Origin: a bacterium
GTDB taxonomy: Bacteria > JAJVIF01
Reading direction: 5' to 3'
Length of the DNA: 64,000 bases
Assembly (NCBI GenBank): GCA_022072165.1
Contig: JAJVIF010000001.1
Coordinates: 1,322,598 to 1,386,597, forward strand
Part shown: piece by piece, positions 22,831 to 55,145 of the stretch
Numbering within the stretch: the stretch's first letter is position 1
Layout: every line of letters begins with the position of its first letter
The notes under the pieces: generated by a model
The model's database searches: none
Told to the model about the DNA's origin: nothing
What the model saw: the letters and a program-made list of their open reading frames with translations, nothing else
Position numbers and translations under genes: made by a program

Positions 22831-22843
22831 AGGAACTGTTCCT
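22831..22843. promoter_or_regulatory. Palindromic candidate operator, copy 1 (peroxiredoxin)
   Basis: AGGAACTGTTCCT is a perfect 6+6 inverted repeat around one base. It lies 22 bases before the peroxiredoxin ATG. A near-identical copy lies upstream of the superoxide dismutase gene at 55133-55145. I saw no further copy in an intergenic position in this window. Confidence 0.6.
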
Positions 22844-22865
22844 AACTTCAGGAGGTCGCACGCAC

Positions 22866-23393
22866 ATGGCTGTCCTCGTGGGCAAGCAAGCACCCGATTT
22901 CACCGCCAAGGCTACTGATGGCGGGGAGATCCGGGAAGTCTCTCTCAGCGATTACAAGGGGAAGTGGCTCGTCCTCTTCTTCTACCCCCTCGACTTCACC
23001 TTCGTCTGCCCGACGGAGATCAAGGCGTACAACGAAATGAACGACGCCTTTGAAGCGGCGGGTGCCAAGGTTCTCGGCGCGAGCATCGACTCGGCCTACA
23101 GCCACAGCGCCTGGATTCAGCGCGACTTCGGCGGCAAGCTGAAGTTCCCGCTCCTGGCCGATGTCACCAAGGAAGTCTGCCGCAAGTTTGGCGTGCTGCT
23201 GGAAGAAGCCGGCATTTCCCTGCGCGGCACCTTCATCATCGACCCCGAGGGCAAGGTGCAGTCCTGCCAGATCAACAACCTGACTGTTGGTCGCAACACC
23301 GATGAGACCCTGCGCCTCCTCAAGGCGTTCCAGTCCGGCGAACTGTGCCCGGTCAACTGGAACGAAGGTGCGGAGACCCTCGGCAAGGCGTAA
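22866..23393 (+). CDS. Typical 2-Cys peroxiredoxin (AhpC/Prx type)
   Basis: This 175-residue peroxidase reduces hydrogen peroxide and organic peroxides in the cytosol. It has the peroxidatic cysteine in DFTFVCPTE (Cys48) and the resolving cysteine in SGELCPVNW (Cys161), the spacing of typical 2-Cys enzymes. An AGGAGG site precedes the ATG by about ten bases, and a strong terminator follows. The palindrome upstream is shared with the superoxide dismutase gene. No ahpF is adjacent, so reduction is probably by thioredoxin or a similar partner (inference). Codon use appears highly biased to C-ending codons, as expected for an abundant protein. Confidence 0.95.
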   Translation: MAVLVGKQAPDFTAKATDGGEIREVSLSDYKGKWLVLFFYPLDFTFVCPTEIKAYNEMNDAFEAAGAKVLGASIDSAYSHSAWIQRDFGGKLKFPLLADVTKEVCRKFGVLLEEAGISLRGTFIIDPEGKVQSCQINNLTVGRNTDETLRLLKAFQSGELCPVNWNEGAETLGKA

Positions 23394-23423
23394 TTGCCGC
23401 TGTCGAGTCTGTCCAAAGTTCCT

Positions 23424-23456
23424 CGCCTCCCGGGAAACCGGGAGGCGTTCTTTTTA
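23424..23456 (+). terminator. Intrinsic terminator after the peroxiredoxin gene
   Basis: CGCCTCCCGG and CCGGGAGGCG form a 10-bp stem closed by a GAAA tetraloop, followed by TTCTTTTTA. Confidence 0.92.
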
Positions 23457-23521
23457 TCGATGTGGCTCTGCGTCGCTGCTACCATCCCCGCTAACCTCAC
23501 GTCTGACGGAGCCGCTGTCCC

Positions 23522-25279
23522 ATGAGCCTCACGCCCCTGGCCCTCGCCTTTCTGATTCTGCTGGCGGTGGCCTACCGCTGGTACGGTCGCTGGGTTGCCC
23601 GGCAGTTCGAGCTGAACGACAACACGACCACGCCCGCCCATCGACTTAACGATGGCGTGGACTTTGTCCCCACCAATCCGTTCTATCTCTTCGGACAGCA
23701 CTTCTCCGCCATTGCAGCGGCGGGTCCCATTGCCGGGCCGATCCTGGCAGCGCAACAGTTCGGGTGGCTCCCCTGCCTCCTCTGGATCGCCCTGGGAGTG
23801 GTGCTGATCGGGGCGGTCCACGATTTCTCGAGCCTGGTGGCATCGGTACGCCGCCAGGGGACCTCGATCGCCGAGGTCGCGGGGGACCTGCTGGGGCACA
23901 ACGCTGGTCGGGCCATGATGGCGTTCATCTGGCTGGCGCTGATCTATGTGATTGTCGCGTTCGCTGACATCACGGCCGGGACGTTCGTGGGCAAGACCGA
24001 AGAACTGGAAGGACTGAATGTCAGCTTCAACCGGGGGGGCGCGGTGGCGGCGGCCGCGATCATGTATCTCGCGCTGTCGTTGCTGCTGGGCGTGGTGGAG
24101 CGTTTTTTGAAGCCGCCTCTCTGGCTCAGCACGGTGATCTTTGTCCCGGCCACCCTGGGGGTGGTCTGGCTGGGGACGCAGATTTCGACGCTCCCCCTCT
24201 TCCTGCATCCGCATAAGGCGTGGGCGGTGGTCATCATGGTCTACTGCCTGGCGGCCAGCCTGACTCCGGTCTGGTTGCTGTTGCAGCCCCGGGGGTATCT
24301 GGGGGGCTTTGTGCTCTATCTGGCGCTGGCCCTGGGAGTCATTGGGATTTTCTCCGGCCAGTTCACCATCCAGCAGGCCCCGTTCAAGACCTGGACCGCC
24401 GGTACGATCGCCGGGACCTCGGCGACCGCCACCCTCTTCCCCATGCTCTTTGTCACCATCGCCTGCGGCGCCTGCTCAGGCTTCCACGGACTGGTCTGCT
24501 CCGGCACGACTTCGAAGCAGATCGACCGGGAGGGGCATTGTCATTCAGTCGGCTATGGGGCCATGCTGGCTGAAGGGTTCGTGGCGTTCATGGCCCTCGT
24601 GACGGTGATGATGCTGTCCGATGACAGGATCGCGGAACTGGCGAAGCCGGGGGCGATCTACGGCAACGGGATCGGGGAGTTCATGGCCCTGATCATCGGG
24701 AAGGAAAATCTGATCTTCGCCATCACCTTCGGTGCGATGGCCTTCTCGACCTTCATCTTCGACACACTGGATGTCTGTACCCGCCTGGGGCGCTATCTGA
24801 TTCAGGAACTGACTGGCTGGAAGGGCACAACCGGGGCCTTCATAGCGACCCTGGCGACAGTCCTCCCAGCGACTGTTTTTCTGCTGACCTCGCCTGAAGG
24901 GGGCTATCTGAAGTTCTGGACCCTCTTTGGAGCCTCCAATCAGCTGCTGGCCGCTCTGACACTGCTGTCGATTTCAGTCTGGCTCCACCGCGCGCGGAAG
25001 CGGATCGCCTTCACCTTGCTCCCGATGTGCTTCGTGCTAACTATTACGCTCTGGGCGCTCACCAAGCTGACCCTGGGTTCGCTCATCCCAACGCCGGGGG
25101 CCGGGCTGGATCCTATCGGGATTGCCAACGGCACGGTGTCGCTGGTCCTGATCTGCCTCGCGCTCTATCTGGTGGTGACCGCCCTGATGCGCCTGCGGGA
25201 ACCCGTTACCGAAGCGCAGCCGCTCACCTTTGATCTTCCCGAGGGGGGAGCCGCTCCGGAGATCGCGCCGGCTGGTTAA
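23522..25279 (+). CDS. cstA: CstA family carbon-starvation / pyruvate-peptide transporter
   Basis: This 585-residue protein with about 15 membrane helices belongs to the CstA family, known in enteric bacteria for uptake of pyruvate and peptides during carbon shortage. Family marks include RLNDGVDFVPTNPFYLFGQHFSAIAAAGPIAGPILA near the start, FHGLVCSGTTSKQI in the middle, FIFDTLDVCTRLGRYL, and LLTSPEGGYLKFWTLFGASNQLLAALTL. It is shorter than E. coli CstA (about 700), as in many non-enteric forms. It is a single gene with its own upstream region after the peroxiredoxin terminator. Confidence 0.93.
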   Translation: MSLTPLALAFLILLAVAYRWYGRWVARQFELNDNTTTPAHRLNDGVDFVPTNPFYLFGQHFSAIAAAGPIAGPILAAQQFGWLPCLLWIALGVVLIGAVHDFSSLVASVRRQGTSIAEVAGDLLGHNAGRAMMAFIWLALIYVIVAFADITAGTFVGKTEELEGLNVSFNRGGAVAAAAIMYLALSLLLGVVERFLKPPLWLSTVIFVPATLGVVWLGTQISTLPLFLHPHKAWAVVIMVYCLAASLTPVWLLLQPRGYLGGFVLYLALALGVIGIFSGQFTIQQAPFKTWTAGTIAGTSATATLFPMLFVTIACGACSGFHGLVCSGTTSKQIDREGHCHSVGYGAMLAEGFVAFMALVTVMMLSDDRIAELAKPGAIYGNGIGEFMALIIGKENLIFAITFGAMAFSTFIFDTLDVCTRLGRYLIQELTGWKGTTGAFIATLATVLPATVFLLTSPEGGYLKFWTLFGASNQLLAALTLLSISVWLHRARKRIAFTLLPMCFVLTITLWALTKLTLGSLIPTPGAGLDPIGIANGTVSLVLICLALYLVVTALMRLREPVTEAQPLTFDLPEGGAAPEIAPAG

Positions 25280-25309
25280 TCAGATCGCATCTGGCGTGGA
25301 CATTAAGTC

Positions 25310-25603
25310 ATGTTCATGCCACAGACCCTGCCGGTGGGCCATACCGCCGGACAGACCCACCTCACTGCGGATGCCATTCGGGGGGCCATCAGGGTGGCCT
25401 TCGGAAATGTCGGTGCCCCCCCGGTTGTCCGGCTGGTGCTGCATCGTCAGGGAGCCAGCTGGCGGGCCGAGGTGACCTTTGATCAGGGCGACTGGTCGCC
25501 GGAGCATCGGCGGACCTGGGTGATCAACGAGTACTTTGCGCGCTGGAACGAGCTGGAGCATCAGTTGGCGATTCGCCTGCACCTGCGACGTCGCTGGTCC
25601 TGA
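25310..25603 (+). CDS. Small protein of unknown function
   Basis: This 97-residue frame lies 30 bases after cstA. Its codons are strongly GC-ending and it avoids rare codons, whereas the opposite-strand frame over the same bases looks like a shadow. The sequence is Arg/Trp-rich toward the end (HLRRRW) with a 'VRLVLHRQGASWRAEVTF' strand-like segment. There is no signal or membrane helix and no recognised family. The start may be the second ATG at 25316; neither has a good ribosome site, so coupling to cstA is possible. Confidence 0.55.
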   Translation: MFMPQTLPVGHTAGQTHLTADAIRGAIRVAFGNVGAPPVVRLVLHRQGASWRAEVTFDQGDWSPEHRRTWVINEYFARWNELEHQLAIRLHLRRRWS

Positions 25604-25678
25604 TCATCTGAAGGGACAAACAAACGTGCACGCCATGCGGCGTGCCCGGGAGAGTTGCTTTCCGAATGAGAGATGGCA

Positions 25679-25975
25679 TCAGGAGAGGCGGATGAGTCGC
25701 CAGAACTTGTTGGTGAGGGTCGCCATCTCGACCCAGCCTCTGACCACGCGGTCCAGAGTCGCGGTCTGACCGAACGAGAACTCCCAGAGGCCGTTCACGG
25801 AGAAAAAGAGGAGTGTCAGGCCGGCGATGCCGAAGAAGGCCCCCATGACAATGCTGGGGGGGTCCCCCTTCCCCCTCACCAGCCCATCCATAGCCGTAAA
25901 GATGAAGAGCAGGCCCAGGGTCCCCAACGAGAGGGCGAGAACCCAGTAAGACGCGGCGATGCCATAGGGACTCAT
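25679..25975 (-). CDS. Small membrane protein
   Basis: This 98-residue protein has two clear membrane helices (YWVLALSLGTLGLLFIFTAM and IVMGAFFGIAGLTLLFFSVN) and a C-terminal amphipathic tail. No family is recognised. It lies 57 bases downstream of the zinc-ribbon gene on the same strand and may be co-transcribed with it. Confidence 0.65.
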   Translation of the reverse strand: MSPYGIAASYWVLALSLGTLGLLFIFTAMDGLVRGKGDPPSIVMGAFFGIAGLTLLFFSVNGLWEFSFGQTATLDRVVRGWVEMATLTNKFWRLIRLS

Positions 25976-26032
25976 GGGACGCGGTGCCCTGCCTTCTCCC
26001 CCGGTGGTCCAGACCGGGCTCAGGAAGCCGGC

Positions 26033-26650
26033 CTAGCGCAGCGGGAAATGGAAGAGATCCTCTTCCCGATCCTGGGGCTGGCAGCTGATGTACATCTGCT
26101 GCAGCGGCACGCCTGGGTCGGGAAAGACCAGGGTGCCCTCCACCCAGGTACCGGGATAGAGGTAGAACCAGCCGTCAAACATGCTGTCCGGGTCGCCTTC
26201 TTCCCTGAGGACCGGCAGGTGCTGCTGGCCGGTCAGGTCGATGAGGACCGATGGTGCAAAAGTGAGGCTGAGGCAGAGTCGTTCAGAGGTGCGATTGCGA
26301 ACCCGGAGGTGGACTACAGTGAGCCGGGTCTCCGTGTCGCCTTCGTCGTCCTCTTCGTCGCGACTCTCACCATTGGAAATAACATCCTGACTGATGCCGA
26401 CAAGTGTGACCTCGAACAGGCGCCCACGCTCACGACGTGGCAGGTCGTAGGGATTCCCCTCGCCATCGGGTTGCGTTACAGAAGCACCGCAGTTCGAGCA
26501 AAAGCGGAAGTGCGCTTTGATCTCTTCCTGGCAGTCAGGGCAGATCGTTGGTTGCCAAGCTTCCGGAGTCCGGGGCAGACGCCCGGCCTCTTCCTGCTCG
26601 CTTGAGCAGTGGAGCAAGAATTCGTCGAAGGGATCGTAGTCGTGACGCAT
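26033..26650 (-). CDS. Zinc-ribbon protein with a beta-rich C-terminal domain
   Basis: This 205-residue protein has an acidic start, a zinc ribbon (CPDCQEEIKAHFRFCSNCG, two CxxC knuckles) at about 37-55, a charged linker, and a C-terminal part of about 120 residues whose phrases ('TVVHLRVRNRTSERLCLSL', 'WVEGTLVFPDPGVP') resemble DUF4352-type Ig-like domains. There is no membrane helix. GGAGG lies seven bases before the start. The function is unknown; the ribbon plus beta domain layout occurs in proteins that report on envelope or cytosolic stress, but this is only analogy. Confidence 0.75.
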   Translation of the reverse strand: MRHDYDPFDEFLLHCSSEQEEAGRLPRTPEAWQPTICPDCQEEIKAHFRFCSNCGASVTQPDGEGNPYDLPRRERGRLFEVTLVGISQDVISNGESRDEEDDEGDTETRLTVVHLRVRNRTSERLCLSLTFAPSVLIDLTGQQHLPVLREEGDPDSMFDGWFYLYPGTWVEGTLVFPDPGVPLQQMYISCQPQDREEDLFHFPLR

Positions 26651-27081
26651 GATGGTCCTCCCCTTGGCAAGCCGCGTGGCAACTCCCCGAGACTGGGGCT
26701 GTCCGCTGGAATAACTTTACCTGATTCCGGCCCGGCTGCTGGCCCTCACCTGTTGCTGAATCCCGCATAACAAGCGGGATACGTGACATACGGCGGTGTG
26801 TCCAAGAGGCGACACCCGCCAGATACGGTATACTGTATTACGCTATAGTGCGAACCTGCGGAGGGGGAGGAAACTCCGTGCTCTAATGATAGAGTCGTGC
26901 CCAGATGCCCCCAGGGGTTGATGGGACTTGAGGCATCGACCGGAAGGGACCCGATCGATGACCTGCTGTAAACAAATGTACACATACAGCGAGGCTGGTC
27001 GTGCTGGCACCATCCACAGCGAAAGCTAGTATCTTTGAGAAACTACTGTGCAGCCAAGTCTCGCATGCCAACTGGAGGCTC
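26651..27081 (+). ncRNA. 431-base non-coding stretch with a candidate structured RNA or long leader
   Basis: No convincing gene lies here. Two -10-like boxes on the plus strand (TATACT 26829-26834, TATAGT 26844-26849) point to a transcript starting near 26842-26857. Downstream there are several good helices: GGAG-GAAA-CTCC (26866-26877), CTCTA-ATGA-TAGAG (26881-26894), GATGCC with GGCATC (26904-26909 with 26931-26936), CATCGA with TCGATG (26934-26939 with 26954-26959), and GACC-t-GCTGTA with TACAGC…GGTC (26960-26970 with 26985-27000). The third and fourth share bases and exclude each other, as in a switch. Two further perfect or near-perfect hairpins lie upstream (26760-26780 and 26792-26820). 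It may be a leader of the gene at 27082 or a separate RNA. No known riboswitch class fits. Confidence 0.4.
26760..26780 (+). repeat. Hairpin upstream of the structured region
   Basis: ATCCCGC and GCGGGAT form a perfect 7-bp stem with a 7-base loop. A second one follows at 26792-26820 (10 bp with one bulge). No T-tract follows on either strand. Confidence 0.4.
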
Positions 27082-27804
27082 ATGACCACCCTCCGACTCC
27101 TCGGACCTGAAGCAGTCCTCCTCGCCCTGGCCCTGATGGGGCTGCTGTCCGGGGCGCTGATGCCGGTGCGTCTGTCGACTCTTCCTGTCAGGATCCACTC
27201 CATGGCCGCAGCAGAGAATCTCCCGCACGAAGCACTCTTTCATCTGGTAGATCATGGGATGTACTTTGGACGCGGCATGGGGGGCTACCAGCAATCGTTG
27301 CAGCCGATTCTGAAGCAGCTCCGGTCGCAGGGGCTGACGTTTGTGGAGCAGTACTGGCGTTGGGTCGGGGATGTGCCGCAAGAGGTCGTCGCGCAGCAGG
27401 TCGAGTTGCCGCTGGTGTCGCTCAACGGCAACAAGGTCGACCTGGAGCTCCTGGCGCGGTACATCGGTCCCCGGTACCTGCGGGAGCCAGGGGAACTGAT
27501 CTACATCCCGCTGGGAAGAGGCGTCATGAGTGCCGTGACTGGGGAGATGGCGTATCGCAACTACGCGGTCGTGGTCTTTGATTACTCCCCGGCCTCGAAG
27601 TCACGACCACGTCGAGCACAGGATTTCGGTTTCGGCCCCCGCGAAAACGTGCAGCAGGTCCAGGTGGGACCGTATCTGGCGATGTCGCCGCGGTACCCCA
27701 TCCCCCAGGAAGAGGTCACCCGCTATCAGCTCGACTCTGGGGAAACCGCAGAGGTACGGCAGCAGGGGACCCACTTTCGGATCCAGCTCTATCCGGGCGA
27801 GTAA
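27082..27804 (+). CDS. Secreted or membrane-anchored protein of unknown function
   Basis: This 240-residue protein has an N-terminal hydrophobic helix (AVLLALALMGLLSGALM, about residues 11-27) that may be a signal or anchor. The body is soluble and polar with motifs such as DLELLARYIGPRYLREPGELIYIPLGRGVMS and an 'AMSPRYPIPQEEVTRYQL' end. I recognise no family. I chose the ATG at 27082, which follows GGAGG closely; a longer frame from GTG 27001 would read through the structured RNA region. Confidence 0.65.
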   Translation: MTTLRLLGPEAVLLALALMGLLSGALMPVRLSTLPVRIHSMAAAENLPHEALFHLVDHGMYFGRGMGGYQQSLQPILKQLRSQGLTFVEQYWRWVGDVPQEVVAQQVELPLVSLNGNKVDLELLARYIGPRYLREPGELIYIPLGRGVMSAVTGEMAYRNYAVVVFDYSPASKSRPRRAQDFGFGPRENVQQVQVGPYLAMSPRYPIPQEEVTRYQLDSGETAEVRQQGTHFRIQLYPGE

Positions 27805-27834
27805 CCCGCCAGAGCCAGGTGCAGCCAGCGAAGT

Positions 27835-28386
27835 TTAGGCTTCCGGAACGGCAATGCGAAAGATGATGGGTCCAGTTTGCTGACGCTTGCGGAGGGCGAA
27901 GACCCTGACCTCATAGGTGCCCGCAATGGTGGGTTCCCAGAGGAAAGTCCCGCCGCTCATGCCTCCGCTGTAGCTGCTGTTGATGGACGGCGGATTCTCC
28001 CCTGCATTAACCCGGGAGATTTCGAGCCCCAGGTGATCCCCGATCTCCATCGGTGCGTTCGCAGCTGCCTTGAAGCTGATTTCCCAGGAGTTTGGCCCCA
28101 GGATAGGGGGCCAGGTGATTTTTTCGAGATTGATCCGGTCGCCCATGCTGTTGTGGACGGAGAGGACGTCCCCCGAAGTCACATCGAAGGTTTTGACTTC
28201 ATCCGGATCGGCCGCTGCCGGGGGAGTCGCTGGGGCGTCCGCCTGCGGCGCTCCCGCTGCCTGCACTCCCTGAGCCGGCGGCGGGTCACCTGCGGCCTGC
28301 GGTGACTTGCCCTGCTCTGCCGGGGGGGTGCCGCAGCCAGCGAGGAGGAGGAAGAAGAGAGCAGCGGGAAGGATGCGGGAGGTCAT
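27835..28386 (-). CDS. Small lipoprotein of unknown function
   Basis: This 183-residue protein has a lipoprotein signal (ALFFLLLAGC), a Pro/Ala/Gln-rich linker of about 55 residues, and a C-terminal beta-rich domain of about 110 residues that includes SGGTFLWEPTIAGTYEVRVFALRK, an Ig-like end. AGGAG lies upstream. It sits between the gene at 27082 and the large PrcB-repeat lipoprotein. Its function is unknown; export to the surface or periplasm is likely. Confidence 0.72.
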   Translation of the reverse strand: MTSRILPAALFFLLLAGCGTPPAEQGKSPQAAGDPPPAQGVQAAGAPQADAPATPPAAADPDEVKTFDVTSGDVLSVHNSMGDRINLEKITWPPILGPNSWEISFKAAANAPMEIGDHLGLEISRVNAGENPPSINSSYSGGMSGGTFLWEPTIAGTYEVRVFALRKRQQTGPIIFRIAVPEA

Positions 28387-28481
28387 GGACGGCGTAGCTC
28401 CTGGGGACCGAAGAGTGACGAGATGGTACCGCGTCAACTTCTTAGCAGTCGCCGGGCCATCCTGACAGCCGTCCAGCAAAA

Positions 28482-28507
28482 GCCCCCCAAAGCAGACTTT
28501 GGGGGGC
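28482..28507 (-). terminator. Intrinsic terminator of the PrcB-repeat gene
   Basis: GCCCCCCAAAG and CTTTGGGGGGC form an 11-bp stem with a CAGA loop, followed by TTTTGC on the minus strand, 35 bases beyond the stop at 28542. Confidence 0.85.
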
Positions 28508-28541
28508 CAACGCTGTTCAGGGCAAGTGGCAGTAGCCCGGC

Positions 28542-31406
28542 TTAAGGGCAGTGGTACTCCTGGTCATCGGCCTGGATGAACTCGACATCTGCCGCGACTC
28601 GGGGGATCGCGACCACGATGCTCCAGTTGCCGTCATCAAAGGGGCACTCTGCGTTGTAGAAGTCCCGGTGCCAGTCGACCCGGACCGGCTTTTCAGTGCC
28701 AGGTTCCGGCAGTTTGACACAGTCGATTACCGGCTGGCGCGTGATAGCCAGAACTCCCACGTTAATGGCCAGGACCATCTCCTGCTCGAAGTTCACCGGG
28801 GGCGGGGCGGAGCCGGGGTACCGGGAAGTCCAGTACTGCTGCCAGTGGCTGCCATCGCGGATGACCACCTCAGCGGGCCCGAACTGCTCGGACTGGCGGC
28901 CATCAGAGAGGAGGCGGAAATCCGTGCAGAGGGGGGGACAGGGCGGCGCGGTGGTCATCGACTCCCGCCACTCGACCTCCCCGGCAAACTTGTTGATCGA
29001 CACCACTTTGAGGGGTCGCCAGAAGCCCGGCGTCCCGCAGTTCGCCCCCGGGAAGATCTGGGTGTACTCCACGATGAGCTGGGGTGTGGCAGGTCGTTGG
29101 ATGCAGTCAATCCGGATCTGATGCGGGTTGAGGCTCACGGCACCAGGAGAAATCGCCAGCAACGAGCGGGTCTGGAAATTGATCTCCGGCGCTGGCGGCT
29201 CGTTGGGATACGCCTCCTGCCAGAAGAGGTTCCACTGCTCCTGATTCGTAATCAGCAGGCGGTACGGCCCATCCTTGTAGGAGACTTGCCGGTCGACGAC
29301 GACCTCGAAGGGCTCACAGGCGGGAGGCGGACAGGGCGCGCCCTGCTCCTCCCGGACTGTCCAGCGGACATTGCCGTTGAAGCGATTGAAGGCTGCGACG
29401 GCATACTGCTGATTCACGAAGGGCGGGCAGTTCTCGCCAGCGGAGATGATGGTGTAAACCACTTCGAGGTCCACGCCACCTACGCCGTTGGGGGTCCGCC
29501 GGATGCAGTCGATCACTACGCGGCGTCCGGGACTCGCGACTCCCATGGCGACCACACTCTGCTGCTCGAAATTCACCGGCGGTCGCGGGACATTGGGGAA
29601 CGCCTGAAGCCAGTACTGCTCCCACTGCACAATGTTGGTGATGAGCTGCTGATACGCCCCTTCTTTGAAATGGGGTTGATTCTGGATCAGCAACTGGAAC
29701 GGTTCACACGCCTGGGGCTCGCAGGGCGGAGCCTGGCGATCCCGTCGATCGAAAGTCGCGGCGGGCGTGAAGGGGATCACTCCGATATGTACCGGCGTGT
29801 TGATGATCTGCGGGGTCTCGCAGTTGGCACCCGGCGCTACGCCCTCCCAGCCGACATCAACCCGCTCCAGTGGAATCCCAGGACCCGGCGTGGGATTCGC
29901 CTTGAGCTCGATGATGTTGGCGTTATAGCCCTGACGTGAGGCGGACCCGACGGAGACCACCAGCACCCTTTCGGTGGCGAAGTCGACGCAGGGGACCGGT
30001 CCGGGGACCTGCAGCACCTGCCAGAGTTCCTGCAACTGTCCTGGCTGCTGGAGCATCAATTCCCGCGGGGGCTGACCGGCAGCCGGCGTGGTGCCATGGA
30101 AGAGCGTCTGGAACGGAACGTTGCCCAGCCCGCACTCAGTGATCCGCTGGGACTGCCGCCAGGCGACGGCGTTCCACTTCGGTCCCAGCCACATCCGGAA
30201 CGGGGAGGTCATGACGGTCTGTACACCGCATCCAGCGCCTGGACTCACAGTCGAGTAGCAAAGTTCCGGCAGGAGGCTGGAATGGGGCATGAGCGACGGC
30301 AGCACGGCATAGCCGCTTGTGGGCCGACTCCCCATGAAGGCAGCGTAGACGTTGAAGCACTGGAAGTTCACCGGCGGCGGGGCAGAGCCCGGCTGATGTT
30401 CCGCCCAGAGCTGCTGCCATTCGGCGGGGTTCGTGATCAGCTGTTCCCGGCCCTGCTGAATCGCGGAGTGCTGCCCATCGACCAGCGGTCGGAAAGGAGC
30501 ACCACCGGCACCATCGGAACAGGGTTCGGGGGTCGAGTTAAAGCCGATTTCATTCTCGAAGTGGAAGCCCGCCGAGTCATCAGCGCGGACCACCAGCCGG
30601 TCCTGCGGGCCGCTGCCAGGGATGGTGCCGCTCCAGATGTTGTCGCCAGCGATGGCATCCGGCGCTTCCCCGATGTCGTTCATTGAGTAGAGCACCGGCA
30701 GTGGGGACCCAGGGAAAAAGGCATTCACCTGCAGCGGGACATTGTTGGCCTGCCAGTCGATGACCAGTGCGGAAATGGTGGTGCCTTCGAGGGTCAGATT
30801 TTCAACAATCGGTTCCTGTCGGGCGGTCGGGAACGACGCATCGAGGTAGAACCGGAGTCCACCAAAGTTCGTAGCTCCCTGGGGCCACTGGATCCGAATC
30901 TGCCCTTCCAGCGATGACCCACCAAGGAAGCGACGTCGTTCCTGATCCTTACCGATGGCCACGACCGGCTTGCGCTGCCCGAAGCCAGGAGCCGCCGGAT
31001 AATCGCCCCCCCGCTCGGGGGTCGCGAAGCCATCGGGACCCAGAATCCGGTTGCCGTTCAGGTTGTAAAACGCTACCCAGAGTCCAAAGGCGGTGTACCG
31101 GGTTTTGTTGGTGAAACGCGCATGGATGTCCCAGATGCGGGTCACCGGATCGTAGTTCGTCTCCAGCAGGTCGACCTGGACGTAGGGGTCGACTACCAGC
31201 TGACCGGTCCGTTCATCGATCGCCTGCAGCACCGGGCTGCCAGTGGCATCCAGGGCCAGCTCATAGGCTCCCCACATCGAGCTTTGAGGCGGATCGGCCT
31301 GCTGGGGTGTCGCCGGTACAGCAGGTGACTTCTGCCTGCTACAGGCACTGAGCATGAACGCCAGCAAACAGACGGCGAGCATGAGACGGGAGATGGCGGT
31401 CCACAT
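28542..31406 (-). CDS. Large lipoprotein with five PrcB_C-like repeats
   Basis: This 954-residue protein has a lipoprotein signal (LAVCLLAFMLSAC). Residues about 30-290 form a beta-rich first part. About five repeats with a period of roughly 130 residues follow, each with the PrcB_C layout 'LITN..eW..lW…PPVNF….v..a…G…I.CI', beginning near residues 322, 452, 589, 719 and 849 (LITNPAEWQQLW, LMLQQPGQLQELW, LITNIVQWEQYW, LITNQEQWNLFW, VIRDGSHWQQYW). In Treponema denticola, PrcB helps to assemble the surface dentilisin protease; here the repeats may scaffold or guard exported proteins (inference). I chose 31406 because a GGGAG site lies nine bases before it. Confidence 0.83.
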   Translation of the reverse strand: MWTAISRLMLAVCLLAFMLSACSRQKSPAVPATPQQADPPQSSMWGAYELALDATGSPVLQAIDERTGQLVVDPYVQVDLLETNYDPVTRIWDIHARFTNKTRYTAFGLWVAFYNLNGNRILGPDGFATPERGGDYPAAPGFGQRKPVVAIGKDQERRRFLGGSSLEGQIRIQWPQGATNFGGLRFYLDASFPTARQEPIVENLTLEGTTISALVIDWQANNVPLQVNAFFPGSPLPVLYSMNDIGEAPDAIAGDNIWSGTIPGSGPQDRLVVRADDSAGFHFENEIGFNSTPEPCSDGAGGAPFRPLVDGQHSAIQQGREQLITNPAEWQQLWAEHQPGSAPPPVNFQCFNVYAAFMGSRPTSGYAVLPSLMPHSSLLPELCYSTVSPGAGCGVQTVMTSPFRMWLGPKWNAVAWRQSQRITECGLGNVPFQTLFHGTTPAAGQPPRELMLQQPGQLQELWQVLQVPGPVPCVDFATERVLVVSVGSASRQGYNANIIELKANPTPGPGIPLERVDVGWEGVAPGANCETPQIINTPVHIGVIPFTPAATFDRRDRQAPPCEPQACEPFQLLIQNQPHFKEGAYQQLITNIVQWEQYWLQAFPNVPRPPVNFEQQSVVAMGVASPGRRVVIDCIRRTPNGVGGVDLEVVYTIISAGENCPPFVNQQYAVAAFNRFNGNVRWTVREEQGAPCPPPACEPFEVVVDRQVSYKDGPYRLLITNQEQWNLFWQEAYPNEPPAPEINFQTRSLLAISPGAVSLNPHQIRIDCIQRPATPQLIVEYTQIFPGANCGTPGFWRPLKVVSINKFAGEVEWRESMTTAPPCPPLCTDFRLLSDGRQSEQFGPAEVVIRDGSHWQQYWTSRYPGSAPPPVNFEQEMVLAINVGVLAITRQPVIDCVKLPEPGTEKPVRVDWHRDFYNAECPFDDGNWSIVVAIPRVAADVEFIQADDQEYHCP

Positions 31407-32307: not shown

Positions 32308-32357
32308 TCTCGCACGCGCAGACTCCTGACTGACGCCATCACCGATCGTCAGTCCCG

Positions 32358-46099: not shown

Positions 46100-46145
46100 G
46101 ATACGGCGAGCACGGTCCTTAAACAGACACCCCGACGAGGCATCG

Positions 46146-46642: not shown

Positions 46643-47077
46643 ATGCGACCCCACCTTTGGGCACTGTTGGCCGCGGTGTCGCTGGCTGCATCCATGGCCT
46701 GTGAGTCCGGAGCAGCTCCCACGAATTCTGTACTCCACGAGCCACAAGCGCTCGTGGTTTCCCCGGCCGTGCAGCCGGATGATCTGACTGAACGATTGCG
46801 AGAATCTGGAGGGTTAGCGGTCACGGCTTCCCGGGCTGGTAGCGGCATGACCCTGACGATTCAGCTGTGCAATACCCTCGGGATGCCGCTGGAACAGCTC
46901 AAGATCATCATCATCGACAACCCGGTCACCCGCAGGATGCCACCACGCACGATCGTGCTGAACGGTCCGGAGCGACTGCCGCCTGGGGCGATGGTGACAA
47001 TGCAGGTGCCAGTCCGGGACCCCGGTGCTGCCTCGACGGTGGAGGTCACCGGGCATCTGGCCGGGAGCTCAGATTAG
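46643..47077 (+). CDS. Small lipoprotein of unknown function
   Basis: This 144-residue protein has a lipoprotein signal (LLAAVSLAASMAC). Residues from about 75 are beta-rich (TLTIQLCNTLGMPLEQLKI, 'GAMVTMQVPVRDPGAASTVEV'), like a small Ig-type domain. GGAGG lies nine bases before the ATG at 46643. Its stop shares TTAG with the convergent ddl gene. Confidence 0.7.
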   Translation: MRPHLWALLAAVSLAASMACESGAAPTNSVLHEPQALVVSPAVQPDDLTERLRESGGLAVTASRAGSGMTLTIQLCNTLGMPLEQLKIIIIDNPVTRRMPPRTIVLNGPERLPPGAMVTMQVPVRDPGAASTVEVTGHLAGSSD

Positions 47078-48015: not shown

Positions 48016-48072
48016 GCGTAACCTCCGCACTGCGTTGCAGCACAGATCACGCCAAGGGGATTCGGAGGGGTG

Positions 48073-48699
48073 CTAAGACGGAGCCGGGGAGGAGAGGGTC
48101 GAGAAACGGGTCCGGACCAGCAACCAGAGGCGCTGACCGCTCCGCCAGATGAGCCAGCCGACGAAACAGACAAAGGCAAAAGCCAGAGGGGTGATCAGGA
48201 TGCCCGCCAGTATCCCGAGGACGCTCGCAGCATCCTCGATGATGCTGATCACGGGATTGCCCATCCCCAGGGTAAAGCCCGTGCTGGAGAGTCGGGTGAT
48301 CTTCTTAGCCTGATGGAAGAGCGAAGCGACCGAGCCCCCCGCGAGGAGGCCGAAGATGGTCGCCCAGAGGGGATCCCACTGCTCGATGAAGCCGCTGACA
48401 AGGATTGTGCCGGCGACTGGCTTCACCCAGTCGGCGACGCTGTCCAGCACGTTGTCCAGCACCGGGATTTTATCGGCGGCGACTTCGATGATCGCTGCAA
48501 CCGTGAAAATGAGGACCGCCACATCACTCCCCAGCCAGCTGTAGGCGGATGACAGGGGGAGGAGGTTTTCGTGGGCCAGCCAACCGACCACGCAGAGCGG
48601 CAGAAATGCCCGGAGACCCGCCACGGCGGCGAGACTGATGCCCATCATGATGCAGAATCCCAGTGCCACCGGGGACATCATGTCGAAGGGTGTAGACAT
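48073..48699 (-). CDS. DUF4126 family membrane protein
   Basis: This 208-residue protein has about five membrane helices and the DUF4126 start: LGFCIMMGISLAAVAGLRAFLPL, then 'AIIEVAADKIPVLDNVLDSVADWVKPVAGTI', the most conserved segment of the family. The function is unknown. A second start at 48681 is possible. It lies upstream of ddl on the same strand with a 57-base gap. Confidence 0.85.
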   Translation of the reverse strand: MSTPFDMMSPVALGFCIMMGISLAAVAGLRAFLPLCVVGWLAHENLLPLSSAYSWLGSDVAVLIFTVAAIIEVAADKIPVLDNVLDSVADWVKPVAGTILVSGFIEQWDPLWATIFGLLAGGSVASLFHQAKKITRLSSTGFTLGMGNPVISIIEDAASVLGILAGILITPLAFAFVCFVGWLIWRSGQRLWLLVRTRFSTLSSPAPS

Positions 48700-48853
48700 T
48701 CGGGCTGCGGCCCCTTTCCCTGTGGGTCTGATCCCTGATGCGAGGCGACTGACAGCTAAGACACGGTTACGGACTGCTGGTTGCGCCAGTGTACTATTTT
48801 CCTGATTTCGAGTGGCATTCTGGCTGGTCGGGGTACATCAAACTGAACGGGGG

Positions 48854-49270
48854 TCAGGCATTGCCTGCTGGGGTCAGCCAGGGATGCGCCGCCGCCGCGT
48901 CCTGCCGAGTCGGAAACCAGGGAAGATAGCGTTCCAGATGGGTGAGTTGCAGCAGTTCCTGCATAACACGGGAGGGTCCGATCAGGATGACCTGCCGGGC
49001 GCCATCGGAGACCTGGCGTAGTTGTCGGTAGACCGCGACGATCGCCCCAAGCCCGGCAGAATCCAGAAACGGCGTGGCGGTGAGATCGAGCACCAGATGC
49101 CCGGCAGTGGAGGGGAGGATCGCCTGCAGGAGCGCATCGCGGATGTCGCTGGCGGTTCCCCCATCGAGGTCGGTCAGCAGGTGCGCCAGGGTCCAGCCGG
49201 GGAAGCACTCGAACTGCAGGGCGACCCGCCCATCAGCCAGGAGTACCGGTGCTGGGGCAGCATTGCTCAT
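48854..49270 (-). CDS. STAS-domain protein (anti-sigma factor antagonist-like)
   Basis: This 138-residue protein is a single STAS domain: 'ALQFECFPGWTLAHLL', then GHLVLDLTATPFLDSAGLGAIVAVYRQLRQ. In classical antagonists such as SpoIIAA the phosphorylated residue is the second serine of the D-S-S-G motif; here it reads D-S-A-G, so the usual phospho-acceptor is missing. It lies five bases after the aminotransferase gene and is probably co-transcribed. An RsbU-type phosphatase gene is at 41000. I chose 49270 because the longer frame shadows the aminotransferase. Confidence 0.82.
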   Translation of the reverse strand: MSNAAPAPVLLADGRVALQFECFPGWTLAHLLTDLDGGTASDIRDALLQAILPSTAGHLVLDLTATPFLDSAGLGAIVAVYRQLRQVSDGARQVILIGPSRVMQELLQLTHLERYLPWFPTRQDAAAAHPWLTPAGNA

Positions 49271-49275
49271 GCGCG

Positions 49276-50517
49276 TCAGGCGACCGCTGTGGCAGGAGCG
49301 CCCAGCACGTCGTGAATGCGTCCGAAGGCCTCGCGGAGGAATTCCAGCGCCAGTTCCAGATTTTCCTGGCTGTTGGCGTAGGAGAGCCGGAGGTAGCCCT
49401 CGCCCTGCGGGCCAAAAGCAGTCCCGGCGAGTGCGGCGACGCCATCGATGCCTGATGCCGAGCGGACACCCGCCTCGCCTGCCCCTTTGAGCAGGTAGTC
49501 CTGGATCTGTTTTGAGGAGTACCCGAAGCTGCTGATGTTGGGGAAGACGTAGAACGCCCCTTCGGGCAGGTGGCACTTGATGCCAGGGATGGCGTTGAGT
49601 CCGGCCACCAGCAGGTCGCGACGCGCCTGAAACTCCTGCACCATTGCCTTGATCGGGGCAAGGTCCCCTTCCAGGGCGCTGATACCGGCGGTTTGGGTGA
49701 AAGCCGCAGCACAGGAGTTGGAGTTGGTCATCAGGAGTCCGAGCCCCCGGGCCAGTGGAAGACTGGTGACTGTAAAGCCGAGTCGCCAGCCGGTCATAGC
49801 GTAGGCCTTGCTCCAGCCATCGAGGAGGATGGTCTGGTCGGCCATGCCAGGGATGCTGTAGAAGCTGGGACAGTCCGTGCCGTAAGCGATCTGCATGTAG
49901 ATCTCGTCGGTCAGGACAAAGACATCCTTACCCCGGACGATGTCAGCGATGGCTTCCAGATCGGCCCGGGTGAAAACGCCGCCGGTGGGATTCTGGGGGC
50001 TGTTGAGGACCAGCATCCGGGTGTTGGAGGTCACTAGCTGCGCGAGATCATCGAGCTGGGTCCGGAAGCCCAGCGACTCCTGGAGCACATAGGGCGTGCA
50101 CTTGGCTCCCAGGAAACTGGCGACCGACGCGTAGGTGGGGTAACCGGGATCGGGATAGACCACTTCGTCGCCATCGTTGAGGGTCGCAAGCATACTGAGG
50201 AAGATGGCGGGCTTGGCCCCCGGGAAGATCGTGACCTGTTCCCAGGAAGGCGTGACTCCCCGGGTTTTCGCCACAAAGCGGGCGACCGCTTCCCGGGCTT
50301 CCTTGCGTCCGGGGGAAGGCGTGTAGTGCGTGTCCTCGGACCGGAGGGCGGTGACCGCCGCATCGATGATGTGTTCGGGGGTGTTGAAGTCAGGTTCGCC
50401 GATATTGAGGCGAATGACCCGCTTCCCCTGCTCTTCGAGGGCCCGGATGACGATCAGGAGTTCGAACGCCGCCTCGCCGCCCAGCCGGGCCATGCGATGC
50501 GCGAGAGTGCTTGCCAT
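49276..50517 (-). CDS. Pyridoxal-phosphate aminotransferase, class I/II
   Basis: This 413-residue enzyme shows INIGEPDFNTPEHI, the pyridoxal-binding stretch with the catalytic lysine in LLDGWSKAYAMTGWRLGF, and FYVFPNISSFGYSS. It looks like an aspartate/aromatic aminotransferase (AspC/DapL type), but the amino-acid substrate cannot be told by eye. The start at 50517 has GAGG six bases upstream; a TACAAT box lies 40 bases further on. It is divergent from the arsenate reductase gene. Confidence 0.88.
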   Translation of the reverse strand: MASTLAHRMARLGGEAAFELLIVIRALEEQGKRVIRLNIGEPDFNTPEHIIDAAVTALRSEDTHYTPSPGRKEAREAVARFVAKTRGVTPSWEQVTIFPGAKPAIFLSMLATLNDGDEVVYPDPGYPTYASVASFLGAKCTPYVLQESLGFRTQLDDLAQLVTSNTRMLVLNSPQNPTGGVFTRADLEAIADIVRGKDVFVLTDEIYMQIAYGTDCPSFYSIPGMADQTILLDGWSKAYAMTGWRLGFTVTSLPLARGLGLLMTNSNSCAAAFTQTAGISALEGDLAPIKAMVQEFQARRDLLVAGLNAIPGIKCHLPEGAFYVFPNISSFGYSSKQIQDYLLKGAGEAGVRSASGIDGVAALAGTAFGPQGEGYLRLSYANSQENLELALEFLREAFGRIHDVLGAPATAVA

Positions 50518-50556
50518 GAATGCCTCGCTCTGGCCGATCGATGTGGCCAGCGCAGG

Positions 50557-50562
50557 ATTGTA
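50557..50562 (-). promoter_or_regulatory. -10 box of the aminotransferase gene
   Basis: On the minus strand TACAAT lies about 40 bases before the ATG at 50517; a GAGG site lies near the start, so this gene is leadered. Confidence 0.4.
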
Positions 50563-50596
50563 ACGGAGGCGCAATGCTCCGGCAGGACGGCTGGCG

Positions 50597-50602
50597 CATA
50601 CT
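50597..50602 (+). promoter_or_regulatory. -10 box of the arsenate reductase gene (leaderless)
   Basis: CATACT ends nine bases before the ATG at 50612; no ribosome binding site is seen. Confidence 0.45.
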
Positions 50603-50611
50603 GCCAGACGT

Positions 50612-51022
50612 ATGAAGCTCCTCTTTCTCTGCACCGGCAACAGCTGTCGCAGCCAAATGGCGGAAGGGTATGGCCGCCGGCACCTCCCTCAGGACTGGGA
50701 GATTTACTCTGCGGGCATTGAGGCGCATGGCATGAATCCGCGTACCATCACGGTCATGACAGCAGATGGTGTCGACATCACCGGGCAATATTCCAAAACC
50801 GTAGACGCAGTTCCCTGGCAGGAGATGGACATCATCATCACGCTCTGCGGCCACGCCTCGGAAACCTGTCCGACGTTGCCGGTGGCGGCCCGGGTGGAGC
50901 ATTGGGGGTTGCCTGATCCGGCGATGGCTCAGGGAAATGAGCAGGAAGTGATGGCGGTGTACGCGGAAGTCCGGAATGAGATCAAACGCCGCATTCTCGA
51001 CTTCGCCGCTGGGCTCTCCTGA
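50612..51022 (+). CDS. arsC: Arsenate reductase, thioredoxin-coupled (ArsC)
   Basis: This 136-residue protein has the low-molecular-weight phosphatase fold with the P-loop CTGNSCRS (Cys7, Arg13). Cys79 and Cys86 lie in ITLCGHASETCP, matching the C10/C82/C89 relay of S. aureus ArsC that passes electrons to thioredoxin. It reduces arsenate to arsenite in the cytosol. No arsenite pump or ArsR is nearby, so a broader tyrosine phosphatase role is possible. The gene seems leaderless. Confidence 0.9.
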   Translation: MKLLFLCTGNSCRSQMAEGYGRRHLPQDWEIYSAGIEAHGMNPRTITVMTADGVDITGQYSKTVDAVPWQEMDIIITLCGHASETCPTLPVAARVEHWGLPDPAMAQGNEQEVMAVYAEVRNEIKRRILDFAAGLS

Positions 51023-51028
51023 CCCAAC

Positions 51029-51034
51029 TACACT
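51029..51034 (+). promoter_or_regulatory. -10 box of the CoA-transferase gene (leaderless)
   Basis: TACACT ends nine bases before the ATG at 51044, in the short gap after arsC. Confidence 0.5.
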
Positions 51035-51043
51035 ACGGGTCGC

Positions 51044-51832
51044 ATGACGCTGTCGCGCACCGAGTGGCTGACCCTGGCGATCGCCCGTCTGATCCGGGAT
51101 GGGGACCGGGTGTCAATCGGGACCAATCTCCCGGCGGCTCGGGCCGGTGCGATGCTGGCCAAACTGACCCATGCACCGCATTCGACGCTTTTTTTAGGGA
51201 TGGCGGAAGTCCGGACCCTCCCCTCCCCAACTCCCGATTTCCTCAGCCTATCCGGTGGCGCGGCGGAAGCGACCGGGCATCAGACGCTGGAACGGTTCTT
51301 TGACCACGCGCAGGATGTCGATTTTTTCGTAGTCGGCGGGATGCAGATCGACCCCTGGGGCAACACGAATCTGCTCGGCATCGGTCCTGCGGAGTTGCCA
51401 GTCGCGGAGCGCTTTGCGGCCCGGACCGTGTTCGGTCCCGGTCCGATTGGGACGGTGACCATGACCGCGCACGCGCGGCGGTATGTCCTCTTCGCGGCAG
51501 ACCATCAGCCCCGGACCTTCGTCCCGGAGCTGGCGTTCCGCACGACAGTCGGATGGGGCGATGGGGGATCGCACCGGGAGCGTCTCGGACTGCCGGGCGG
51601 CGGTCCGGTGGCTTGCGTGACGGAACTGGGGGTGTTCGACTATCCGTGGCCTGATCGCCGCATGCGGCTTCGGGCTCCTTTTCAGGGCGTGACCTTTGGG
51701 CAGATTGCTGAGCGTACGGGCTTCAGCGTGGAGCGCCCAGCCAAGCTCCAGGAGTACCCCCTTCCCACGGCAAGGGAGTTACAGGTGCTGCGGGAAGTCG
51801 TGGATCCCCGGGGGCGGCTTCGGGACCGCTGA
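51044..51832 (+). CDS. CoA-transferase family I, beta-type subunit (GctB-like), without an adjacent alpha subunit
   Basis: This 262-residue protein resembles the B subunit of glutaconate-type CoA-transferases: DGDRVSIGTNLPAARAGAMLA, and DFFVVGGMQIDPWGNTNLLGIG, a family signature. The region where the catalytic glutamate is expected reads LFLGMAEVRTL. Such enzymes are normally heterodimers, yet no A-subunit gene lies next to it. It could pair with a distant partner or work differently. The start is leaderless after TACACT. Confidence 0.8.
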   Translation: MTLSRTEWLTLAIARLIRDGDRVSIGTNLPAARAGAMLAKLTHAPHSTLFLGMAEVRTLPSPTPDFLSLSGGAAEATGHQTLERFFDHAQDVDFFVVGGMQIDPWGNTNLLGIGPAELPVAERFAARTVFGPGPIGTVTMTAHARRYVLFAADHQPRTFVPELAFRTTVGWGDGGSHRERLGLPGGGPVACVTELGVFDYPWPDRRMRLRAPFQGVTFGQIAERTGFSVERPAKLQEYPLPTARELQVLREVVDPRGRLRDR

Positions 51833-51900
51833 AAAATTCTTGCCGCGAGACTGAACCTGTGTCCGGATTCGCGGTCTTACTGCACGTACTACCCGGTCTG

Positions 51901-51931
51901 CCCCCCGCCTGGCTTGCCAGGCGGGGGGTTT
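51901..51931 (+). terminator. Intrinsic terminator after the CoA-transferase gene
   Basis: CCCCCCGCCTGG and CCAGGCGGGGGG form a perfect 12-bp stem with a CTTG loop, followed by TTT. Confidence 0.88.
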
Positions 51932-52041
51932 AGTGTAAGCGCTCCGGTGACTTGTCGCCTATTGTTCCCGGAGGGAAACTAGCGGGCTGCAATAGCATCA
52001 GCCTGTTCGTGGTTGCGGTAGGGTAGTACTGCCTGAACGCT

Positions 52042-52055
52042 GCCGTATCTACGGC
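52042..52055. promoter_or_regulatory. Palindrome just upstream of the DsbD-like gene
   Basis: GCCGTA and TACGGC flank TC, a perfect 6-bp inverted repeat 18 bases before the ATG at 52074. It could be an operator. Confidence 0.4.
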
Positions 52056-52073
52056 GATAAAGGAACAGCGCCC

Positions 52074-54278
52074 ATGCGCTTTCGGCCCGGCATTCTTGCG
52101 ATACTGACCCTCGTGGCACTGCTGGCCAGCTCGACAGTCGCGCTGGCTGCGCCGCAGCGTGTTGGTCCGCTGGAAGTTGATCTGATTACCCCGCAACAGA
52201 GCGTAATGCCGGGGCAACCACTTACGGTCGGCCTCCAGTTTCGGCTCGATCCACACTGGCATGTCTACTGGCGGAATCCGGGCGATTCCGGACTCTCCCC
52301 TTCGCTTGGCTGGTCGCTACCGGAGGGCTTTAGCGCCGGGGAGCTGCAATGGCCCTACCCCATCTCGATACCGCTGGGTCCGCTGGTCAGTCTCGGGTAT
52401 GAAGATGAAGTCATCCTGCCGGTCACCATTCAGGTGCCTGAGACGCTGCCCACGGATGGCACGGTGACCCTGGCAGCCCGGGCCGACTGGCTGGTCTGTA
52501 AAGAAGAATGCATCCCCGGTGACGCCAGCCTGATTCTCACACTGCCGGTCCGGGCGGATGCCCCGACACTCGATGCCGCCCTGGCGGAAAAATTCGAGCA
52601 TTTTAGGAATCGACTCCCAGTAAGTGACCTGGGCTGGCAGGTCGGGGTGACCTCGACTCCCGAGAAAATCCAGCTGTTTCTTGCGCCTCCCGAAGGACTC
52701 ACCACGACGCTTAAAAAAGTCACCTTTTTTCCCTTTGAGTCGGAGGTTATCGAGTACCTGGAGCCGCAGGTACTGCAACCGGTAGCGGGGGGATATCAGC
52801 TGGAGCTGACCCGGTCGCAGTTTGCCGATGGCAGCGACGTGACCTCCCTCGAGGGCATTGTGGTGTCGCCGGAAGGATGGCGTGGTCCGGGGTCCGAAGC
52901 AGCGATGACCATCGCTGCGACTGCGGGCAAGCCTGCGGCACTGACAGGAGCGGGGGGGGGAACCACCACCACTTCGCAAGGGAGTACCGGCAGTGGCGCG
53001 GGAAATGGCAACGCCACCACGTTGTGGCAGGCACTCCTCTTCGCCTTCATCGGCGGCATGATCCTGAATCTCATGCCCTGTGTCCTCCCCGTGTTGTCGC
53101 TGAAAGTGTTCGGCTTCGTGAAACATGCCGGTCAGGACCGGAAGCAGTCCCTGCTGCACGGGCTGGTCTTTACGGCAGGGGTGCTGCTGTCGTTCCTGGC
53201 GCTGGCGGTGGTCCTGCTCGTGCTGCGGGCGGGTGGGGAACAGGTCGGGCTGGGCTTTCATCTGCAGTCGCCCGGATTCCTGATCGGGCTCTCGGCGTTT
53301 CTCTTCCTGTTTGCGATGAGCCTGCTGGGGGTCTTCGAAATCGGGGCGTCGCTCACCGGGCTGGGCAGCGCAGCACAGGCCGCGCATGGCTTGTCCGGGT
53401 CGTTCCTGAATGGTGTCACCGCGACGGTCGTGGCAACCCCTTGTACTGCACCATTTATGGGGACCGCACTGGGCTTCGCCCTCACGCAACCAGCCGTGGG
53501 GATCCTCGCGATCTTCTGCGCGATTGGCCTCGGGATGTCCGCGCCGTATGTGGCGCTGTCGGCCAATCCGGGATGGCTGAAGTTCATCCCGAAGCCGGGT
53601 CCCTGGATGGACACCTTTAAGCAGGTGATGGGCTTCCTGCTGCTGGCGACCATCGCGTGGCTCGCCTCGGTGCTGGGGCAGGTCGCGGGGAGTGCTGGCA
53701 TGACTGCACTCCTCTGGACGCTCCTGTTCCTCGGCTTCGGCAGCTGGATCCTCCAGCACTTTGCTCCGGTCACGGCTCCTGCCCGGACGCAGCGCAATGC
53801 CCAGGTAGCCGCTCTGGTCTGTATCGTCGGGGGACTGTTGCTGGGACTGAGCGCGGTCGGAAACTCGGCATCCGTGAGTCGACCCGCCCTGGCGAAAGAG
53901 GCAGAGAGCGCGCATGGCGTAGTCTGGGAGTCCTTCTCGCAGGACCGCCTGGATGCCCTGGTGGCGACAGGCGAGCAACCGATTTTCATCGACTTCACGG
54001 CGGCCTGGTGCCTGAGTTGTCAGGTGAATAAAAAAGTCGCGCTGGAGACCACGGCGGTCTCGGAGAAATTTGCGGAGTTGGGAGTGGTCACGATCCGGGC
54101 CGACTGGACCCGTCGCGATGCCGAAATCACCCGGGCACTGGCGGGCTACCAGCGCAACAGCGTGCCGGTGTATGTCCTGATCCCCCCTGGGGGAGAACCC
54201 CGGCTGCTGCCTGAAATCCTGACGCCATCCATTGTGCTCGAGGCCCTCGAGACGCTGGCTGGCCCACCACCTGGCTGA
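52074..54278 (+). CDS. DsbD/ScsB-type protein-disulfide reductase
   Basis: This 734-residue protein carries electrons from cytosolic thioredoxin across the membrane to envelope proteins. It has a signal peptide (LASSTVALAA), an N-terminal domain with a cysteine pair (WLVCKEECIPG, Cys142 and Cys146), a CcdA-like membrane domain of about eight helices (LMPCVLPVLSLKVFG and ATPCTAPFMG carry its redox cysteines), and a C-terminal thioredoxin domain with WCLSC near residue 647. The N-terminal domain is of the ScsB/'DsbC' kind rather than E. coli DsbD-alpha. It is followed by a redoxin gene. Confidence 0.92.
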   Translation: MRFRPGILAILTLVALLASSTVALAAPQRVGPLEVDLITPQQSVMPGQPLTVGLQFRLDPHWHVYWRNPGDSGLSPSLGWSLPEGFSAGELQWPYPISIPLGPLVSLGYEDEVILPVTIQVPETLPTDGTVTLAARADWLVCKEECIPGDASLILTLPVRADAPTLDAALAEKFEHFRNRLPVSDLGWQVGVTSTPEKIQLFLAPPEGLTTTLKKVTFFPFESEVIEYLEPQVLQPVAGGYQLELTRSQFADGSDVTSLEGIVVSPEGWRGPGSEAAMTIAATAGKPAALTGAGGGTTTTSQGSTGSGAGNGNATTLWQALLFAFIGGMILNLMPCVLPVLSLKVFGFVKHAGQDRKQSLLHGLVFTAGVLLSFLALAVVLLVLRAGGEQVGLGFHLQSPGFLIGLSAFLFLFAMSLLGVFEIGASLTGLGSAAQAAHGLSGSFLNGVTATVVATPCTAPFMGTALGFALTQPAVGILAIFCAIGLGMSAPYVALSANPGWLKFIPKPGPWMDTFKQVMGFLLLATIAWLASVLGQVAGSAGMTALLWTLLFLGFGSWILQHFAPVTAPARTQRNAQVAALVCIVGGLLLGLSAVGNSASVSRPALAKEAESAHGVVWESFSQDRLDALVATGEQPIFIDFTAAWCLSCQVNKKVALETTAVSEKFAELGVVTIRADWTRRDAEITRALAGYQRNSVPVYVLIPPGGEPRLLPEILTPSIVLEALETLAGPPPG

Positions 54279-54332
54279 CGTCCTACGCCGGACCCGGGAT
54301 AGGGTCCGCAATTTGAAAGGGAGTCCGACATC

Positions 54333-55031
54333 ATGCGCAATCTGACGCTCGTTCTGGCAGCCGGCGCGCTGCTGAACCTGAGCCTGCTGGCCTGCACCTC
54401 AACCACCGCTCACGCGGAGCCTGCGAAGGGAACCAAAACGAAACTGGAGGGCGAGCGCAAGCTGGCCAAGACCGGGACGGCCGTGACCACGGCAGCCATC
54501 GGCAAGCCCGCTCCGAACTTCACGCTGACCTCAGCGACTGGCACGAAGCACAGCCTGACTGAGTTCAAGGGCAAGTACGTCGTGCTCGAATGGGTGAACT
54601 ACGACTGCCCGTTCGTGGTGGCGCAGTATGGCGCTGGCCGAATGCAGAAGCTCCAGAAGCAGATGACCGACGCTGGCGTCATCTGGCTCTCCATCAACAC
54701 GGGACCGATGGGGAAGCAGGGAGTCTGGGAAGGCCAGGCACTGCTGGATCGCATCGCCAAGGAGAAGGCGGTCCCGACCGCGTACCTGCGGGATCCCGAT
54801 GGTGCGGTGGGCAAGCTCTTCGGTGCGAAGACCACCCCGCACATGTACCTCATCAGCCCAGAGCAGGTCCTCCTCTTCGCTGGGGGCCTCGATGACAAGG
54901 CCGCGACCAGCGCTGCGGAAGTCCAGATGGAGGGGTCCTTCATCGAGGACGCCTACGCCGAAGCCTCCGCTGGCAAGGCCGTGAGTATCGCCACGCCGAA
55001 GCCCTATGGCTGCGGCGTGAAGTACCCGTAG
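54333..55031 (+). CDS. Exported redoxin (thioredoxin-like, AhpC/TSA group)
   Basis: This 232-residue protein has a lipoprotein-like signal (ALLNLSLLAC), a linker and a thioredoxin-fold domain from about 50. The single active-site cysteine lies in EWVNYDCPFV, a NxxCPFV motif typical of this redoxin branch, and it ends with the family tail KPYGCGVKY carrying a second cysteine. It probably acts in the envelope as a peroxidase or thiol oxidoreductase fed by the DsbD-type protein upstream (inference). GGGAG precedes the ATG. Confidence 0.87.
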   Translation: MRNLTLVLAAGALLNLSLLACTSTTAHAEPAKGTKTKLEGERKLAKTGTAVTTAAIGKPAPNFTLTSATGTKHSLTEFKGKYVVLEWVNYDCPFVVAQYGAGRMQKLQKQMTDAGVIWLSINTGPMGKQGVWEGQALLDRIAKEKAVPTAYLRDPDGAVGKLFGAKTTPHMYLISPEQVLLFAGGLDDKAATSAAEVQMEGSFIEDAYAEASAGKAVSIATPKPYGCGVKYP

Positions 55032-55132
55032 TTCGCGAACACGCCACCCGGGGGGAGTCGATGTGCGAGCCTCGGCTCTCCCCGTCGCCCCCTCCTGGTT
55101 TTCAGGGATTGGCTGACGGTCATCTGCAAATC

Positions 55133-55145
55133 AGGAACGATTCCT
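55133..55145. promoter_or_regulatory. Palindromic candidate operator, copy 2 (superoxide dismutase)
   Basis: AGGAACGATTCCT differs from the peroxiredoxin copy at only two central bases (AGGAAC-N-RTTCCT). It lies 51 bases before the sod ATG and is followed at once by TGTATCTTT, which holds a possible -10 box. Confidence 0.6.

Follow-up and report, generated by a model that had tools for sequence, protein, structure and literature searches.

The 13-bp palindrome that precedes the peroxiredoxin and superoxide dismutase genes in the window, by which we mean the whole stretch of 64,000 nucleotides analysed here, very probably serves as operator for the PerR that this genome encodes, a repressor of the Fur family that depends on metal and senses peroxide. 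The same palindrome was encountered before the catalase-peroxidase gene katG and, half degraded, before perR, and this distribution makes a PerR operator the most likely reading. Judged from the sequences, prx, sod, katG and perR most likely form a small PerR regulon that PerR would repress in its metal-bound state and that peroxide would induce. Table 1 lists the positions of the sites and genes.

Table 1. Boxes and genes of the proposed PerR regulon. Coordinates refer to the window unless a contig (C1, C3) is named.
Feature	Coordinates	Strand	Remarks
Divergent gene, 250 aa if the ATG at 22794 is the start	22042-22794	-	start codon inferred
PerR-type box TAGGAACTGTTCCTA, before prx	22830-22844	.	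perfect 7-1-7 inverted repeat
prx, AhpC/TSA-family peroxiredoxin, 175 aa, predicted PerR target	22866-23393	+	PF00578, 2.4e-44
PerR-type box CAGGAACGATTCCTG, before sod	55132-55146	.	core is the 13-mer
sod, Fe/Mn superoxide dismutase, 215 aa, predicted PerR target	55197-55844	+	Sod_Fe_N and Sod_Fe_C, 4.9e-25
katG box TAGGAATGATTCCTA	C1:950671-950685		123 bp before the katG ATG; TATACT just downstream of the box
perR, Fur-family, 131 aa	C3:11016-11411	-	PF01475 and ligands

An earlier note on this DNA had described the palindrome before the two antioxidant genes. We confirmed AGGAACTGTTCCT at 22831-22843 and AGGAACGATTCCT at 55133-55145, and Pfam supports the identity of both genes. Each 13-mer is the core of a 15-bp inverted repeat, TAGGAAY-N-RTTCCTA, with arms of 7 bp and a single central base. 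Boxes of the Fur family have this 7-1-7 spacing, and sites of the form TAGGAAYNRTTCCTA are present at prx, sod and katG, so that the proposed sharing of an operator-like element among antioxidant genes holds for all three. The prx box sits in a 71-bp intergenic region separating divergent genes, and its 13-mer ends 22 bp before the ATG at 22866; the 13-mer of sod ends 51 bp before the ATG at 55197. The divergent gene, for which we obtained no Pfam match, lies on the other side of the intergenic region that holds the prx box and is possibly co-regulated. Directly before sod, at 52074-55031, we observed a DsbD-like gene and then a gene whose AhpC/TSA-domain product resembles a lipoprotein at its N-terminus; the two may make up an extracytoplasmic redox set next to the cytosolic SOD. 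The -10 box that had been suggested next to each palindrome proved weak. In a promoter scan neither the prx nor the sod site gave a good sigma70 match, and thus box and promoter clearly overlap in two cases only, perR and the prx of a genome of the same class (G002).

To count the sites across the genome around the window (3.26 Mb, 99% complete, four contigs) we used pattern searches with mismatches. Occurrence at chance frequency in coding and intergenic DNA had been named beforehand as an outcome that would speak against a regulatory site. For AGGAACNNTTCCT the result was divided: there are 8 distinct places compared to 0.4 expected, but 6 of them lie inside reading frames, and hence the 13-mer by itself lacks specificity. 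The outer 15-mer TAGGAANNNTTCCTA gave a clearer answer, with exactly two exact places in 3.26 Mb (prx and katG) where base composition predicts 0.05. Its two-mismatch class is not over-represented (22 places, compared to 60 for the reversed control), which indicates that the enrichment is confined to a few best sites, as in a small regulon. Within the window, the pattern with up to two mismatches was found 18 times against a shuffle mean of 6.5, each palindrome being counted twice.

Places of the AGGAAYNRTTCCT type occur at katG, prx and sod and once within an ABC-transporter reading frame. A simple binomial estimate for three of four such places preceding antioxidant genes is <1e-8, with the gene class chosen after two of the sites had already been seen. 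When up to one mismatch was allowed, AGGAACNRTTCCT gave 19 distinct places genome-wide; read in context, three of them precede a gene (prx, sod and katG) and another lies in a repeat array. One contig end (G000:C4:1-2289, L157) carries a CRISPR-like array in which at least 28 units recur every 66 bp or so; the repeat around CTGTGGCCGTCGGACAATGACCGCTCAGGTACAAT is conserved and the spacers vary. The katG product is a catalase-peroxidase of 730 aa (NCBIfam, 1293 bits). The fragment AGGAAYNRTTC, with 14 forward matches compared to 3 for the control, added one more promoter site, TAGGAATGATTCGCG, before the Fur-family gene perR on C3. The enrichment before catalase and regulator genes that the earlier note had predicted was thus found at katG and perR. 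Nearly all other near-matches that we examined are inside long ORFs, and looser scans for more regulon members returned almost only sites within long reading frames. Two further places, both weak and non-coding or ambiguous, were not counted as members: C1:748351 (AGGAACGGTTC), which lacks the right half and has an ATG ∼20 bp downstream, and C1:1440966 (TACGAAGTCATCCTA).

The occurrence of the 13-mer in coding sequence also fits chance palindromes, and the sod copy was called terminator-like in the analysis, as would suit an RNA hairpin or terminator with no regulatory role. Set against this are the three of four AGGAAYNRTTCCT places before antioxidant genes and the recurrence of similar boxes at perR-linked genes of other genomes. 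Furthermore, the RNA form of the sites is not unusually stable and folds no better than shuffles, which makes the symmetry a feature of the DNA; on this ground we rejected the hairpin and terminator reading, and an origin without any regulatory role is extremely improbable.

The perR promoter reads TTGACA-18-AAAATA; TAGGAATGATTCGCG is located at its end, at a distance of 35 bp from the ATG. This copy of the box is half degenerate (TAGGAAT-G-ATTCGCG), its right half being poor. Its position presumes MATAER as the start of translation; if an upstream ATG in the same frame were used, the box would fall inside the gene. A gene for an HMA-domain P1B-type heavy-metal ATPase (L208:2438-5011) converges on perR with 5 bp between the gene ends; its product may be an exporter of metal with a connection to PerR. 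The same locus (L208:6549-10796) and three others of this genome (L177, L190 and L249) encode a number of very large proteins that look secreted or lipoprotein-like and contain repeated stretches; they are known from their open reading frames only.

The product of perR has a FUR fold (PF01475) that scored 93.2 bits with a cut-off of 23.1. Its best PDB match is B. subtilis PerR (2FE3) at 1e-27, and the next reached 3e-18. All five regulatory-metal ligands are kept (H27, D75, H81, H83 and D94), in agreement with the PerR ligands His37, Asp85, His91, His93 and Asp104, where position 104 is Asp and not Glu. The roles of these ligands (PMC4866751) and of D104 in particular (PMC8638851) have been described. 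The genome's own Fur has Glu at the position of D94. Two CXXC pairs for the structural zinc are present as well (C86, C89, C126 and C129). In a tree of 18 rows the protein grouped with the PerR of B. subtilis and S. pyogenes with a support of 96/94; the genome's own Fur stood apart and clustered with Fur proteins from relatives of the same class. The curated NCBIfam PerR cut-offs were not reached (103 bits vs 200).

At the position of Asn61 in B. subtilis PerR the present protein has Arg51, the Fur-type residue, which the PerR-branch homologues compared share. As this canonical mark is absent we call the protein PerR-type and not a B. subtilis-type PerR. According to Caux-Thang 2015, as cited in PMC8638851, the position sets the choice of the box. 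The mark therefore concerns box specificity rather than peroxide sensing, and a protein with Arg51 need not read the B. subtilis per box TTATAATNATTATAA. Arg51 may be behind the GG-containing box; PerR homologues with TVYRNL were also found beside other box types. The two systems are otherwise alike in several respects. The B. subtilis box is likewise a 15-bp 7-1-7 inverted repeat, the regulators are homologous with identical metal ligands, and catalase- and ahpC-type genes are among the targets in both. They differ in the half-site, which is TAGGAAY here and TTATAAT in B. subtilis (TAGGAAT deviates at 3 of 7 positions and TAGGAAC at 4 of 7), in Arg instead of Asn, and in the box carried by sod.

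Both the dissimilarity to the B. subtilis box and the Arg at the Asn61 position would also suit an operator that belongs to a different regulator, either an undescribed oxidative-stress factor, as the earlier note had suggested, or one of the two Rrf2 proteins that the genome encodes. We consider this unlikely. The Rrf2 genes adjoin SufB-like and nitrate-reductase-like ORFs (read from the translations), neighbours that fit SufR/IscR-like and NsrR-like roles, and no box was found near either gene; for these reasons we rejected the Rrf2 regulators. The 7-1-7 spacing is of the Fur-family type, in other genomes the same sites accompany perR genes, and this genome encodes a PerR-type protein whose gene is itself preceded by a degenerate copy of the box. 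OxyR was rejected as well, as no LysR_substrate domain in the genome matched over the cut-off.

Fur itself is encoded at C1:563562-563921, and an iron-dependent control of the antioxidant genes through its operator would agree with the Fur-type residue at Arg51. Fur also controls sod genes in some bacteria. The Fur box GATAATGATNATCATTATC shares the operator geometry of the family but has other half-site letters and another gene set than the present box. The targets here are the genes of H2O2 and superoxide defence together with perR, the fur gene has no box nearby, and across species the box is associated with perR genes. Control by Fur is thus very improbable, and PerR remains the regulator to which we assign the box.

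The earlier note had also held that the pattern matches no known PerR operator, and this claim did not stand. Rodionov et al. 2004 (PMC545781, Table 7) list predicted PerR operators for Desulfovibrio vulgaris and D. desulfuricans, among them cACAGGAATGATTCCTGTT at ahpC and AATAGGAATCGTTCCTGTT at rbr2 of D. vulgaris, and these sites were noted there as not conforming to the B. subtilis box. The 13-mer of the ahpC site, AGGAATGATTCCT, is identical to the katG site of the present genome, and that of the rbr2 site, AGGAATCGTTCCT, is the reverse complement of the present sod site. As the same 13-mers were published as predictions, the element belongs to a kind of PerR operator that is already known from computational prediction. 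The sites reported here have the form of this Desulfovibrio-type box, a 7-1-7 palindrome NAGGAAT-N-NTTCCTN in the promoters of peroxide genes and of perR. The targets overlap in ahpC and perR. Desulfovibrio targets include rubrerythrins, whereas in the present genome, which belongs to a different lineage, katG and sod carry the box and no rubrerythrin was found above the cut-off. A literature search for the TAGGAAT string together with PerR returned nothing relevant, and as far as the literature searched shows the present lineage was not earlier listed for this box.

We then compared the promoters of other genomes. The closest three relatives (G001, G002 and G003) have only the class in common with this genome, and in all three a perR-type gene adjoins prx. 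In G002 the box TAGGAATCATTACTA follows TTGACA-17-TAAATA directly before prx-perR. The equivalent promoters of G001 and G003 carry CGGTAATAATTACTG and CAGTAACAATAACTG, which are AGTAA-/TAATAA-like and not AGGAA, and are nearer to the other Desulfovibrio form, CAGTAATTGTTACTG. Outside the class, TAGGAATCATTCCTG lies upstream of perR and then rubrerythrin in G213, and TGAGAATGATTCCTG lies just upstream of perR in G221. The link between AGGAA/TTCCT and perR is thus present in more than one lineage, where the cross-lineage support itself includes Desulfovibrio sites that are predictions. The box does not occur everywhere: among 80 named Prx loci of other phyla, not one had it within 500 bp upstream at up to two mismatches, and we rejected a general spread before Prx in those phyla.

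In the proposed regulation a metal-loaded PerR dimer would occupy the box within or close to the promoter and thereby block transcription. H2O2 would oxidise the ligand histidines of PerR at the Fe(II) site and the oxidised protein would let go of the DNA, upon which peroxiredoxin, catalase-peroxidase, SOD and PerR itself would be induced. A more speculative and rather doubtful extension would treat the PerR proteins that have Arg at the recognition position as a branch of their own, some members of which read the GG/CC-containing 7-1-7 box TAGGAAYNRTTCCTA, and would have this branch draw sod into a compact PerR regulon in the present, isolated lineage. While no new regulator is revealed, the analysis offers a peroxide regulon of four genes that is open to testing, in a lineage that has very few relatives among the genomes compared, and a PerR-box variant predicted in Desulfovibrio is now linked to PerR-type genes of other lineages.
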